From: Thermodesulfomicrobium sp. WS | GTDB taxonomy: Bacteria > Desulfobacterota > Desulfovibrionia > Desulfovibrionales > Desulfomicrobiaceae | Assembly (NCBI RefSeq): GCF_027925145.1 | Contig: NZ_AP027130.1 | Coordinates: 1,922,001-1,986,000, forward strand | Length of the DNA: 64,000 bases | Direction: 5' to 3' | Shown: positions 6,477 to 26,060 of the stretch, in pieces | Position numbering within the stretch: the first letter of the stretch is position 1 | Layout of the letters: each line of letters starts with the position of its first letter | Program-made: the position numbers and the translations under genes | The notes under the pieces: generated by a model | Seen by the model: the letters and a program-made list of their open reading frames with translations, nothing else | Database searches by the model: none | What the model was told of the DNA's origin: nothing

Positions 6477-6512
6477 CCCGACGGCCGGTCCTCCCCGGCC
6501 GTCGGGTTTTTT
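6477..6512 (+). terminator. Intrinsic terminator after the carbonic anhydrase
   Basis: A perfect 12-bp stem (CCCGACGGCCGG with CCGGCCGTCGGG), a six-base loop and six T residues lie just after the carbonic anhydrase stop. The T run is on the plus strand only, so it serves the plus-strand gene; the convergent trpB ends a few bases beyond. Confidence 0.9.
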
Positions 6513-6518
6513 ATTGGC

Positions 6519-7718
6519 TCACAGGGAGGGGATGCGAAGTTCCCCCTGACGCACCAAGCGCTCCACCTGCTCCACATCCTTATCCCCACGACCCGACAGA
6601 TTGACCACCAAAACCGCGTCCCGAGGCAGAGTCGGCGCCACGGCCACGGCATGGGCAAGGGCGTGGGCGGACTCCAGGGCAGGGATGATCCCCTCCAGGC
6701 GCGAGAGCAGGAAAAAGGCGTCCACGGCTTCCTGATCGCTGGCGTACACGTACTGCGCCCGGCCAGAGTCCTTGAGATAGGCATGCTCCGGGCCCACGCT
6801 GGGGTAATCCAGACCTGCGGAGATGGAGTACACTTCTGCGGGTCCCCCGGAGGCATCCTTGAGCATGTACGAGTAAAAACCATGCATGGTGCCCGGCTCG
6901 CCCAGACACAGGGTCGCCGCATGCTGCCCGTACTCCAGACCACGGCCCGCGGGCTCGACACCGATGAGCCGGACCTCCGTATCGTCCATGAACCCGGAAA
7001 ACAGTCCAATGGCATTGGAGCCGCCGCCCACACAGGCAATGCAGGCATCGGGCAGACGGCCTTCCTGCGCGAGGATCTGCTCCCGGGCCTCACGCCCCAC
7101 TACGGCCTGGAACTCGCGCACCATGAGGGGATAGGGATGCGGGCCCACGGCAGACCCGAGAAGATAGAACGCATCGCCTTCCCGCACCCAGGCCTCGATG
7201 GCCTCGTCCACGGCCTCCTTGAGGGTTTTCTGCCCGCTTTGGGCCGGAACTACCCGGGCCCCCATCATCTCCATGCGGAAGACGTTGAGCCGCTGCCGCT
7301 CCACATCCACCGCGCCCATGTAAATGGTGCATTCCATCCCCATGAGCGCGGCCGTGGCGGCCGTGGCCACGCCATGCTGTCCAGCCCCGGTCTCCGCAAT
7401 GATCTTTTTCTTGCCCATACGCTTTGCCAGCAAAATCTGTCCGATGGTATTGTTGATCTTATGCGCCCCCAGGTGGTTCAGATCTTCCCGCTTCAGGTAT
7501 ATTTTCGCTCCGCCAAGATGGCGGGTAAGATTGGCGCAAAAATACAAAGGATTGGGTCTTCCTGCATATTGACGCAAGTAGTATTGGTACTCATCGAAAA
7601 ACTCCGGATCATTGCGATACTTTTGGAATGCATGATCCAACTCATCCAGCATGGACTTCACTGGCTCTGGGACGAATTGCCCGCCGTAAGGGCCAAAAAA
7701 CCCAGAAAACTGACGCAT
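6519..7718 (-). CDS. trpB: Tryptophan synthase beta chain
   Basis: 399 residues, the standard TrpB1 length. It joins indole and serine using PLP. The PLP lysine is Lys87 in [12 protein letters not shown]; the phosphate-binding loop is [19 protein letters not shown] and the C-terminal NLSGRGDKD are conserved. AAGGAGGT precedes the ATG. No trpA or other trp gene lies next to it: upstream is its own attenuator, downstream the convergent carbonic anhydrase. Regulation is by transcription attenuation with a Trp-rich leader peptide (see 7738-7874). Confidence 0.97.
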
Positions 7719-7737
7719 ATCGACCTCCTTAAAATAC

Positions 7738-7770
7738 AAAAAAACCGCGGTCAGAATCATTCTGCCGCGG
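7738..7770 (-). promoter_or_regulatory. trp attenuator: terminator hairpin before trpB
   Basis: Read toward trpB, CCGCGG-CAGAA pairs with TTCTG-(A)-CCGCGG and is followed by seven T residues, ending 11 bases before the trpB ribosome site. An earlier hairpin (7818-7834, GGCACAC/GTGTGCC with a 3-base loop) directly follows the Trp codons of the leader peptide. The 3' arm of that first hairpin (TGTGCCG) can instead pair, 6 of 7, with CGGCAGA in the 5' arm of the terminator, giving the mutually exclusive 1:2, 2:3 and 3:4 folds of a classical attenuator. Confidence 0.88.
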
Positions 7771-7802
7771 CTTGGGTGTGCGATGGATATCGCCTCTCCG
7801 AG

Positions 7803-7874
7803 TCAACGCCCTCCCCCGGCACACTGCGTGTGCCACCACCACAACCAAGAAAAGGGACAAGTTGCGTTGAACAT
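7803..7874 (-). CDS. trpL: trp operon leader peptide
   Basis: A 23-residue ORF with ATG at 7874 and TGA at 7803-7805. It begins MFNATC and contains the run WLWWW, so four of five consecutive codons are UGG (7833-7841 and 7845-7847). The stop lies shortly before the terminator hairpin upstream of trpB. A ribosome stalling on these codons when Trp-tRNA is scarce would free the antiterminator. No clear Shine-Dalgarno is seen; a TTGACA box only 29 bases upstream of the ATG suggests the transcript may start at or very near the ATG. Confidence 0.88.
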   Translation of the reverse strand: MFNATCPFSWLWWWHTQCAGGGR

Positions 7875-7879
7875 GAAAA

Positions 7880-7909
7880 TATGGTTTCGGAAAAAATCGA
7901 TTTTGTCAA
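7880..7909 (-). promoter_or_regulatory. Probable promoter of trpL-trpB
   Basis: A perfect TTGACA (-35) on the minus strand at 7909-7904 lies 17-18 bases before AACCATA, a weak -10. It is just downstream of the tandem palindromic repeat at 7913-7959 and just upstream of the trpL ATG. The -10 is poor, so the exact start site is uncertain. Confidence 0.5.
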
Positions 7910-7912
7910 GTT

Positions 7913-7959
7913 GCTCTGGGCTGTTTACAGGGGCTCTGGGCTGTTTACAGGGGCTCTGG
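7913..7959. repeat. Tandem 20-bp repeat with CTGTTTACAG palindromes (operator candidate)
   Basis: The unit GCTCTGGGCTGTTTACAGGG occurs twice head to tail (7913-7932 and 7933-7952) and a third partial copy follows (7953-7959). Each unit contains the near-palindrome CTGT-TT-ACAG. The array ends only a few bases upstream of the -35 box of the trpL-trpB promoter, on roughly two helical turns spacing, as expected for paired operator sites. Which regulator binds is unknown. Confidence 0.6.
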
Positions 7960-21071: not shown

Positions 21072-23864
21072 ATGCCTATGCACACTGCCTGCATCCAGAT
21101 CCGCGGCGCCCGCCAGCACAACCTCAAGAATATCAACCTCGACATCCCCCGCGACCAGCTCACCGTGATTTGCGGACCGTCGGGCTCGGGCAAGAGCACG
21201 CTGGCCTTCGACATCGTCTACGCCGAAGGCCAGCGCCGCTACGTGGAGTCGCTCTCCACCTATGCCCGCCAATTCCTGCCGCAGATGGACAAGCCCGACG
21301 TGGACAGCATCGAAGGGCTCACCCCGGCCATCTCCCTGGAGCAGGCCACGGTGTCGCGCAACCCCCGCTCCACGGTGGGGACCGTGACCGAGGTCTACGA
21401 TTTTCTGCGCGTCTTCTGGGCCCGCCTGGGCATCCCCCATTGCCCGCAATGCCACGCCCCCATCACCGCCCAGACCAGCGACCAGATGGTGGACAGCATC
21501 CTCGCCCTCCCTGAAGGCACGCGCTTTCTCCTGCTCGCCCCATTGGTGGAACACAAGAAAGGCACCCACGCCGATCTGTTGCGCAAGCTCAAAAGCCAGG
21601 GCTTTGCCCGGGTGCGGGTCAATGGCGAGGTCCTGGGCCTCGATCCCCTGCCCGAGCTCTCCAAGACCCACAAACACACCATCCACGCCGTGGTGGACCG
21701 ACTGGTACTGCGGCCGGATCTGCGCCGCCGCCTGGCGGACTCGGTGGAGCTGGCCTTGCGCCTGGGCGAAGGCCGGCTGGCGGTGCAGCCGGTGGGCCCC
21801 GACGGCGCGGCAGGCGAAGACATCCTCTTTTCCGCCACCGCCGTGTGTCCCCGCTGCGCAGTGAGCCTGCCCTCCATGAGCCCGCAGCTCTTTTCCTTCA
21901 ACAGCCCCCAAGGGGCCTGCCCGCGCTGCGGCGGTATCGGCAGCATCGAATTCTACGACCCGCAGCTGATGGCCCCCAATACCGGCATGAGTATCGCCGA
22001 CGGCGCCCTGCTCCCCTGGCGCCATCCCAAGGCCCTCTCCCGCATCCGCCCCGATTTGGAACGCCTCGGCCGCGCCCTGGGGTTTACCCTCAACACCCCC
22101 CTCTCCCAGCTCAGTCCAGAGGCGTGGCAGGCCCTCTTCCACGGCCACGCCCCATCCGCCTGGACCGGACTCGTCCCGCTCTTGGAGCGCGGCCACCACC
22201 TGGGCGGCATCTGGCGCGATGAACTCTCCCGCTTTCGGCAAAGCACCACCTGCCCGGCATGCAACGGCGCCCGCCTCCGGCCCGAGGCCCTGGCCGTGCT
22301 CGTAGACCACCTCTCCATCTTCGACTTCTGCTGCCTGCCCGTGGAGCGCGCCCGTACCTGGCTCGACGCCTACTCCCCCGCACCCGGCAAACAGCCCATC
22401 GCCGAGCCCCTGGTGAAAGAACTGCGCCACCGCCTCGGTTTTCTCGCCGCCGTGGGGCTCGACTATCTCACCCTGTCGCGCTCCATGAGCACCCTTTCCG
22501 GGGGCGAGGCGCAGCGCATCCGCCTGGCCGGACAATTGGGCTCCGGCCTGGTGGGAGTGACCTACGTGCTCGACGAGCCGAGCATCGGGCTGCATCCCCG
22601 CGACAACGAACGCCTCATCGCCACCCTGCGCAGCCTCCAGAGCCGGGGCAACACCGTATTGGTGGTGGAGCACGACGAAGCCACCATCCGCGCCGCCGAC
22701 CACGTCATCGAGCTGGGGCCGGGTTCCGGCCTTCTGGGTGGAGAAATCGTCTTTGCCGGCCCGCCCCAGACGCTGGTGGCCGAGGCGGCGACCCTCACCG
22801 GCAAGTACCTGCGCGGCGAGCTCACCATCCCCCGGCCCACCACACGCCGCCGCCCTACAGGGCAGATCACCCTGCGGCAGGTGACCACCAACAACCTCCA
22901 AGGCATCGACTGCGCTTTTCCCCTCGGCAACCTGGTGTGCGTCACCGGGGTATCCGGGTCCGGCAAGAGTTCGCTGGTGATCGACTCCCTCTCCAAGCAC
23001 CTGGCGCTGCGCCACGGCCTGAAGGTGGACTCCCCGGGACATATCGGCGGCATGGAAGGGGCCGAGGCCGTGGAGCGGTTGGTCATCATCGACCAAACCC
23101 CCATCGGCCGCACCCCGCGCTCCAACCCCGCCACCTACACCAAGGTCTTTGACGACATCCGCGCCCTGTTCGCCGGCACCAAAGAGGCCAAAAAGCGCGG
23201 CTACGCGCCGGGACGTTTCAGCTTCAACGTACGCGGCGGCCGCTGCGAGGCCTGCCAGGGTGACGGCCAGATCCGGGTGGAGATGCATTTTCTCCCGGAC
23301 ATCTTCGTCACCTGCGAGGTGTGCGGCGGCAAACGCTACAACCGCGAGACCCTGGACATCCTCTACCGGGGCAAATCCATCGCCGAGGTGCTCGAGATGA
23401 GCGTGGCCGAGGCCAAGGAGTTCTTCGCCGGCCACAGTGCACTCAGCCGCAAATTGGGGATCTTGGAGGAAGTGGGCCTGGAGTACCTGCGCCTTGGACA
23501 ATCGGCCACCACCCTCTCCGGCGGCGAGGCCCAACGCATCAAGCTCTCCCGGGAGCTGGGCAAGCGCAGCCTCCCCGGCACCCTGTACATCCTCGATGAA
23601 CCCACCACGGGGCTGCACATCCATGAGGTGGGCAAGCTCATTGGCGTGCTCCAGACCCTGGTGGACCGCGGGGCCTCGGTCATCGTCATCGAACACAACC
23701 TGGACGTGGTGGCCGCCGCGGACCACGTCATCGACCTCGGCCCCGGAGGCGGAGAGAACGGCGGCCGCATCATCGCCCAGGGCACGCCCGAGGAGCTGGC
23801 CGCCAACCCCGCGTCCATCACCGGGCGCTTTTTGCGACCTGAGAACGCAGCACGCCCGGCCTAG
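21072..23864 (+). CDS. uvrA: Excinuclease ABC subunit A
   Basis: 930 residues, slightly short of the 940 of enterobacteria. Damage recognition in nucleotide excision repair. Two ABC modules: Walker A GPSGSGKSTLA and GVSGSGKSSLV; signatures LSGGEAQRI (twice); zinc fingers CPRCAVSLPSMSPQLFSFNSPQGACPRC and CEACQGDGQIRVEMHFLPDIFVTCEVC, as CxxC pairs. The first ATG of the MPMHTACIQIRGARQHNLKN start was chosen; the ATG two codons later is possible. It overlaps the convergent hldD stop by four bases. Confidence 0.97.
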   Translation: MPMHTACIQIRGARQHNLKNINLDIPRDQLTVICGPSGSGKSTLAFDIVYAEGQRRYVESLSTYARQFLPQMDKPDVDSIEGLTPAISLEQATVSRNPRSTVGTVTEVYDFLRVFWARLGIPHCPQCHAPITAQTSDQMVDSILALPEGTRFLLLAPLVEHKKGTHADLLRKLKSQGFARVRVNGEVLGLDPLPELSKTHKHTIHAVVDRLVLRPDLRRRLADSVELALRLGEGRLAVQPVGPDGAAGEDILFSATAVCPRCAVSLPSMSPQLFSFNSPQGACPRCGGIGSIEFYDPQLMAPNTGMSIADGALLPWRHPKALSRIRPDLERLGRALGFTLNTPLSQLSPEAWQALFHGHAPSAWTGLVPLLERGHHLGGIWRDELSRFRQSTTCPACNGARLRPEALAVLVDHLSIFDFCCLPVERARTWLDAYSPAPGKQPIAEPLVKELRHRLGFLAAVGLDYLTLSRSMSTLSGGEAQRIRLAGQLGSGLVGVTYVLDEPSIGLHPRDNERLIATLRSLQSRGNTVLVVEHDEATIRAADHVIELGPGSGLLGGEIVFAGPPQTLVAEAATLTGKYLRGELTIPRPTTRRRPTGQITLRQVTTNNLQGIDCAFPLGNLVCVTGVSGSGKSSLVIDSLSKHLALRHGLKVDSPGHIGGMEGAEAVERLVIIDQTPIGRTPRSNPATYTKVFDDIRALFAGTKEAKKRGYAPGRFSFNVRGGRCEACQGDGQIRVEMHFLPDIFVTCEVCGGKRYNRETLDILYRGKSIAEVLEMSVAEAKEFFAGHSALSRKLGILEEVGLEYLRLGQSATTLSGGEAQRIKLSRELGKRSLPGTLYILDEPTTGLHIHEVGKLIGVLQTLVDRGASVIVIEHNLDVVAAADHVIDLGPGGGENGGRIIAQGTPEELAANPASITGRFLRPENAARPA

Positions 23865-25370: not shown

Positions 25371-25442
25371 GACTCCCCCCATGAAAGCACCTCAAGGCCC
25401 CAAGGCGTACCCCAAAGCACACCCGCGCCCCGGTTGGGAACT

Positions 25443-26060
25443 CTACGAATTTTCGGAACGCAGGGCCGCCCGCGCCCCGACGATCACACGCAGCGCCGAA
25501 CGCAAAAGGAACCACACAAGCCCGGAAGCCACAAGAATATCGGGCCACTTGGATCCAGTGAGCCACACCCCTCCGGCCGCGACGAATACCGAAATGTTGG
25601 AGACGATATCATTGCGCGAGCACTCCCACACCGAGCTCATGTTGATGTCTTCATGGCGGTGCCGCCACAAAAGATACAGACACACCGCATTGGCCAGCAG
25701 CCCGAGGACGCTGAATGCGCCCATCACCTCGAAGATGGGGACCGTGGGGACAAAAAGCTTGTACAGTACCTGGGCGAGCACCGCGCTCGCAGCCCCGAAA
25801 ATGAGCATCCCCTTGAAGAGGGCGACCTTGGCCTTGGTGGTATTGCTGCGGGAAACCGCGTACAGACTGAGGGCGTAGGTCACCGCATCGCCAAGATTAT
25901 CCAGGCTGTCGGCCAGGAGCGCGGTGGATTTCCCATACAGCGCTGCGACCAAGATCACCAAAAACATCAATGCATTGATGCCGAGCACCATGAGCAACGT
26001 CCCCCGTTGCCGCTGATGCAGGGCATCGATGGCGCAGCTGCCTCCACAACACCGTCCCAT
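25443..26060 (-). CDS. Short cation diffusion facilitator-type transporter
   Basis: 205 residues with five to six transmembrane helices but without the cytoplasmic C-terminal domain of full CDF proteins. Metal site residues are seen as [14 protein letters not shown] (Asp-x3-Asp like) and [14 protein letters not shown]. The N-terminus is [20 protein letters not shown], a Cys-rich start that may bind metal. Expected to export Zn, Co or Cd in exchange for protons. A GAGGAG ribosome site precedes it. The intergenic stretch to hisH (26061-26292) carries no gene. Confidence 0.8.

Follow-up and report, generated by a model that had tools for sequence, protein, structure and literature searches.

The window, i.e., the whole stretch of 64,000 nucleotides analysed here, comes from a member of the Desulfomicrobiaceae whose genome is complete (2.36 Mb) and for which the nearest named record is the MAG UBA12183 (94% TrpB identity). 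On its minus strand lies a gene for a tryptophan synthase beta chain, trpB, whose product scores 594.8 bits against a TIGR00263 equivalog cut-off of 392.45. This trpB stands alone. That is, no co-directional gene follows directly 3' of it, the downstream genes vary among relatives, and an adjoining trpA can be rejected, since trpA is found in a full trp operon near 0.03 Mb of the same genome, along with a second trpB, while the standalone trpB is at 1.93 Mb. The gene behind the leader is in this sense monocistronic, as a first-pass annotation of the window had proposed. Its start is taken to be the ATG at 7718, which has a Shine-Dalgarno, rather than an alternative at 7760 (a 413-aa ORF).

The two TrpB proteins of this genome share 56% identity, and in a tree of 40 proteins the standalone type is placed among Bacillota TrpB, apart from operon TrpB. 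A duplicate of the operon gene is thereby rejected, with horizontal acquisition, as judged from that tree, the more likely origin. Outside of the order, Desulforhopalus vacuolatus possesses a trpB of this type as well (73%), there without a Trp leader.

Preceding trpB is the leader itself (Table 1). The 23-codon ORF with its WLWWW run, i.e., four Trp codons, and likewise the alternative hairpins 1:2 and 2:3 plus a 3:4 terminator ending in seven T residues, all of which the first-pass annotation had described, are located here on the minus strand, and the hairpins are borne out as well by relatives and by choice-point folds, as considered below. Hairpin 1:2, which is GGCACAC/GUGUGCC, begins within the last Trp codon, with arms at 7834-7828 and 7824-7818; the 3:4 terminator reads CCGCGGCAGAA-UGA-UUCUG-a-CCGCGG at 7770-7745 (both minus strand). 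A tandem-Trp ORF, a terminator, mutually exclusive pairings, and trpB as the target thus are all present, which supports viewing the window leader as a Trp attenuator of the trpL class.

Table 1. Features of the trpB leader region and of the likely tyrA-trpE attenuator (window positions unless otherwise indicated)
Feature	Position	Strand	Basis or remark
-35 element TTGACA, leader promoter	7904..7909	-	exact match, 29 nt 5' of leader ATG
Weak -10 region	7878..7886	-	read from sequence; a spacing of 17-18 nt yields no good hexamer, one of 20 nt CATATT
Leader ORF MFNATCPFSWLWWWHTQCAGGGR plus stop, 23 codons	7803..7874	-	translation; ATG 7874, stop ends 7803
Leader Trp codons (WLWWW, four Trp)	7847-7845, 7841-7839, 7838-7836, 7835-7833	-	translation; kept in relatives
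Segment 1, GGCACAC, overlaps last Trp codon	7828..7834	-	fold; covarying pairs
Segment 2, GUGUGCCGGGG, partner of 1 or 3	7814..7824	-	choice-point folding; pairing conserved
Segment 3, CCGCGGCAGAA, terminator 5' arm	7760..7770	-	folding and conservation
Segment 4, UUCUGACCGCGG, terminator 3' arm, one bulged A	7745..7756	-	folding and conservation
T7 run, intrinsic terminator	7738..7744	-	sequence; T run conserved
Shine-Dalgarno AAGGAGG of trpB	7724..7730	-	sequence
trpB, tryptophan synthase beta chain, standalone type, monocistronic	6519..7718	-	ATG 7718; TIGR00263
Strong inverted repeat just past trpB stop, between trpB and convergent gene	6477..6506	.	terminator-like site from scan
tyrA-trpE likely attenuator	L032 3395-3533 (G000:C1 about 25394-25532), outside window; also L147-L176, L257-L296		

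A simple consensus scan of the window for promoters and terminators lists neither the leader promoter nor the trpB-leader terminator, as due to the poor -10 of the former and the bulged A within the stem of the latter. When folded alone, the window leader is only mildly unusual in its stability relative to shuffles (z -1.83). Given these two results, the case for an attenuator rests on comparison. Directly 5' of the leader promoter there is as well a perfect 20-nt tandem repeat, in two copies (7913-7952). As a conserved operator this was rejected, the repeat not being seen in the closest relative (G020).

Conservation across family and order

The leader is found upstream of the orthologous trpB in nearly all of those genomes of the family which have that trpB. 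These family leaders display two or three adjacent Trp codons, then a hairpin, and then a terminator of the form CCGCGGCAG...CUGACCGCGG. A covariance model (R1) that was built from 14 of them, and then applied to 297 of the order's genomes, finds a same-strand match 17-448 nt upstream for 77 of the 132 trpB genes of the standalone type. Such order-wide conservation before standalone trpB rejects the leader as a chance pattern. The leader ORFs of relatives across the order contain WW or WWW, with the Trp codons kept while the remainder of the peptide varies. A lack of Trp-codon conservation in close relatives, which the first-pass annotation had named as grounds for discarding the idea, therefore is not what is seen, either in the family or in the order.

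Hairpin 1:2 is found in compensatory variants (GGCAUG/CAUGCC, GGCACAC/GUGUGCC, and GCAGC/GCUGC), and three of its seven pairs show double-sided changes. The combined 1:2 and 3:4 structure is 96.6% paired, with none of 500 shuffles reaching its covariation score. The 2:3 pairing is preserved in 90.6% of cells, there without covariation. That pairing cannot covary because the terminator, segment 3 particularly, is almost invariant, and near-invariance of segment 3 is what would be expected of a sequence that must pair with both segment 2 and segment 4.

The leader is not a known Rfam element. Within the window only a tRNA reaches the gathering score, with no cis-regulatory match, riboswitch, or T-box model doing so; Trp_leader (RF00513) is not among matches up to E 10; and Rfam sRNA models supply only weak, sub-threshold matches. 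Control of the standalone trpB by TrpR was similarly rejected, PF01371 being absent from all 22 of 22 family genomes while an E. coli control was positive.

Various loci depart from the family pattern. In a species of the window's own genus (L004, from G021) an AT-rich leader, MLRYWIWWCQMDAYWECYQR, lies upstream of trpB, with both the family terminator and an exact TTGACA absent; possibly this is a diverged attenuator. Three genomes of genus g24 (L128-L130) have trpB without a covariance-model match and instead possess, 290 nt upstream of trpB, candidate leaders that end in WWRP and have TTGACA 29 nt 5' of their ATG. In the large genus g12 (loci such as L133, L136, and L140) the standalone trpB type is kept, with most members lacking a recognisable Trp leader.

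Predicted switching with ribosome position

Folding was done as at the choice point, i.e., with segment 4 not yet made and with bases covered by the ribosome blocked. For both the window leader and a Desulfomicrobium-type leader, a ribosome stalled on the Trp codons results in formation of the 2:3 antiterminator; without a ribosome 1:2 forms instead, and once the ribosome sits at the stop codon most of segment 3 remains unpaired. Folding of the leader RNA, a check that the first-pass annotation had proposed, thus reveals both alternatives, with the outcome depending on where the ribosome is found.

The same is seen in bulk over those 69 of 78 leaders that have a detectable terminator (median -17.6 kcal/mol). 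In 68 of the 69, half or more of segment 3 is paired with upstream sequence when the ribosome is stalled on the second Trp codon; the same holds for 27 given no ribosome and for 9 given a ribosome that has reached the stop codon. Mean segment 3 pairing upon stalling is 0.73, versus 0.50 with shuffled spacers. For the other nine leaders, G180, G185, and G192 among them, automatic search found no terminator. The window leader is one of the weaker switches of this set, with segment 3 pairing at 0.67 when stalled versus 0.50 at the stop codon and with one mismatch in its 2:3 helix. As the full-length minimum-energy fold is always the terminator, the switch must be kinetic, which is also how attenuation switches in E. 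coli.

The reading that we favour, at a probability of about 0.86, is that a ribosome-mediated, trpL-type attenuator ties a monocistronic, horizontally acquired TrpB to the charging of tRNA-Trp, with the leader starting leaderless and with the enzyme likely serving in indole salvage. Transcription would begin at the leader AUG or no more than a few bases away from it, the 23 codons then being read from an RNA that is leaderless or nearly so. Given scarce charged tRNA-Trp, the ribosome would stall on the Trp codons and cover segment 1, allowing segments 2 and 3 to pair and RNA polymerase to continue into trpB. Given plentiful Trp, the ribosome would instead reach the stop codon, with segment 2 either covered or re-paired with segment 1, and the 3:4 terminator, per the computed folds, would then form. 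The resulting TrpB would join indole to serine, a salvage route without need for TrpA.

Probable salvage, apparent leaderless initiation, and their alternatives

Neither trpA (PF00290) nor trpC (PF00218) was detected in eight genomes (G005, G015, G119, G180, G185, G192, G232, and G248). Two of these, G005 and G119, each consist of one contig and are 99% complete; in draft genomes undetected genes may be assembly gaps. All eight keep both the standalone trpB and its leader, as found by the model or by ORF scan. In two additional genomes (G233 and G260) trpA and trpC similarly were undetected and the standalone trpB is kept, there with no match to the leader model. A TrpB that is without TrpA and TrpC, and which is nevertheless tied to a Trp sensor, most likely has indole and serine as its substrates, that is, it would effect a TrpA-independent salvage. 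As the switch is present before the lone trpB also in relatives without detectable indole-making genes, what it controls probably is the rescue of scavenged indole.

The window's own genome is not of this kind, as it possesses the full operon with TrpA and TrpC both present. The second TrpB might therefore be viewed instead as a backup of the operon TrpB, one that partners with TrpA under Trp shortage instead of serving indole salvage. Both trpB genes would then respond to Trp, and co-regulation is seen in RNA-seq of D. hydrothermalis. There a trpB (DESAMv2_21414) which lies outside of the aro-trp cluster (21548-21557) changes by log2 -3.0 at high pressure, with the cluster itself dropping by about log2 -2.5 to -3.9 (PMC4162548). 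From the spacing of trpB and tyrA in G175, i.e., 144 kb apart, which suits those locus tags, we infer that G175 is D. hydrothermalis; its trpB has the leader. The joint fall of the off-cluster trpB and the trp cluster fits a shared Trp signal, thereby counting in favour of the attenuator as well, and is no proof of such a signal. Against the backup reading is the grouping of this protein with TrpB of Bacillota rather than with the operon TrpB, with which it shares 56% identity, along with its being the sole close TrpB found in several of the genomes without detectable trpA and trpC. A backup role consequently is judged to be rather unlikely, and indole salvage is retained as the preferred function.

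How the leader peptide comes to be translated is a separate issue. An exact TTGACA is found 28-34 nt before the leader ATG at 78 of 99 order loci, and 29-31 nt before it at 57, with the intervening sequence variable. Of these 78 leaders, five of which (genus g24) are less certain, 62 have a best TA-rich -10 whose end is 6-8 nt from the ATG, and for 14 this distance is 10 nt. The distribution is somewhat sharpened by how leader starts were picked, i.e., by how near the in-frame candidates lie to the promoter. Each of the 78 begins with ATG, though GTG and TTG were allowed, and SD-like tetramers precede only 3 of these leader starts versus 60 of the 78 trpB starts. The simplest reading of these sequences is that transcription begins at or just before the leader AUG. 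The near-fixed spacing and missing Shine-Dalgarno together, that is, point to a leaderless or near-leaderless RNA, thereby providing strong comparative support for what the first-pass annotation had only suspected. That same conserved spacing argues against a transcript start downstream of the leader, the other ground on which the first-pass annotation would have discarded the idea.

It could be instead that the attenuator is real and the leader peptide is made from an ordinary, longer 5' UTR, that is, with transcription starting upstream and translation initiating independently of a Shine-Dalgarno. The weak window -10, and thus a promoter that the consensus scan missed, would be in keeping with this, as would the in-frame upstream ATGs of some leaders and the tetramers of the above three; with TTGACA so nearly fixed in its distance over variable sequence, and with a Shine-Dalgarno almost absent before starts that are invariably ATG, an ordinary 5' UTR nonetheless seems improbable. 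Far less credible still is the absence of any ribosome sensing, i.e., a 5' UTR that is constitutive and has a terminator close to the promoter, or else an sRNA, with the Trp run incidental, since this agrees with the only mildly unusual fold energy and with the weak sRNA matches but not with Trp codons that are conserved within an otherwise variable peptide, a conserved position-dependent switch, or covariation of hairpin 1:2.

With a leaderless Trp attenuator before a lone TrpB as the preferred reading, this would be a case of one salvage enzyme, instead of a biosynthetic operon, under amino-acid attenuation, and the sulfate reducers would supply many natural examples of leader peptides that apparently are leaderless. 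Culturable species open up two questions, that of attenuation by leaderless initiation and that of a lone TrpB feeding on the indole of neighbours.

Related scaffolds and known systems

Classical trp attenuation normally controls a whole operon, and the first-pass annotation had set a lone trpB apart from this. The attenuator of the lone gene has held up; the genome, however, also contains a full trp operon with a likely attenuator of its own, and attenuation therefore has not simply been moved to trpB. At the tyrA-trpE junction of this genome the TyrA C-terminus ends with EAMLWWWRTTTSSGGP and a stop, after which comes UCCUCGGGAGG, which is able to pair with CCUCCCGAGGA, itself part of a strong terminator before trpE. 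In Desulfomicrobium-like genomes the TyrA tail is QKALWWWRKQHDAGGPAS, likewise followed by a stop, and as no Met immediately precedes this tail its Trp codons are translated within TyrA itself. Tails of the form LWWWR..., with a terminator before trpE, are found in several other families of the order. The trp operon attenuator thus likely consists, as predicted from these junctions, of in-frame Trp codons at the TyrA C-terminus plus an antiterminator/terminator pair before trpE. Since the WWW tail persists also in places lacking a downstream terminator or trpE, it may serve the protein as well. A putative attenuator was given for the D. vulgaris aro-trp supraoperon in a 2005 TyrA paper, there without detail on the TyrA tail (PMC1173090).

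The scaffold is seen as well before other genes. In one related genus (L298, G017:C4:107676-107784, and L299, G018:C168:3083-3200) a Phe-rich leader, MNQTFTTFSLFYFYFFTF..., is built as is the Trp leader, with TTGACA 33-34 nt before the ATG and a CCGCGGACAG...CUGACCGCGG terminator, and is followed by a phenylacetate-CoA ligase-like gene; possibly this is a Phe-codon version of the switch, for phenylacetate salvage. The Phe-rich leader was not seen before the orthologue of that ligase-like gene in the window's genome. At L303 (G062:C30:20739-20861) a model match with TGGTGGTGG precedes an ORF that, by eye, resembles the solute-binding protein of a TRAP transporter, which possibly would be under Trp control. 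It can be suggested, quite tentatively, that Desulfovibrionales sense salvage generally through one compact attenuator scaffold, itself leaderless (Trp codons for the horizontally acquired, indole-salvage trpB and, in one genus, Phe codons for phenylacetate-CoA ligase), with the trp operon sensed via Trp codons of the TyrA tail. If true, then amino-acid salvage would be switched by charging of the cognate tRNA, using leader peptides without a ribosome-binding site or even without a leader gene of their own.

No description of this leader in Desulfovibrio was found in a search of largely open-access literature. With trpL of E. coli and other proteobacteria the leader shares a short tandem-Trp ORF, hairpins 1:2, 2:3, and 3:4, and a terminator before a Trp gene. 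Leaders of several members of the order, ending in NWWWRW, resemble even in peptide sequence that of E. coli trpL, which ends in GWWRTS. It differs from these in preceding a single, monocistronic trpB, in having no Shine-Dalgarno and being apparently leaderless, in its lack of an Rfam trp-leader match, and in the absence of a TrpR from the family.

Closer in initiation is rnTrpL of Sinorhizobium meliloti, the 5' end of which is the ATG of trpL, i.e., a leaderless mRNA, and there too only one trp unit, trpLE(G), is attenuated (PMC7298713). That attenuator, however, is on trpE(G), an early pathway step, in another phylum, and rnTrpL has a known trans-acting role. Among Actinobacteria, Trp attenuators have been predicted before split units or single Trp-related genes, namely trpB2A and trpS2 (PMC1262725). 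These are predictions only, from a different phylum and with other conserved motifs, and trpB2A still includes trpA. Chlamydia trpRBA is alike in that tryptophan synthase is kept for indole use without a full pathway, but differs in keeping trpA and in using TrpR and YtgR (PMC7755916) rather than this kind of codon-sensing attenuator. As a class, the mechanism is a known one, that is, classical trp attenuation. What apparently is new is its use on one probable salvage gene, its order-wide and apparently leaderless form, and its absence from Rfam.
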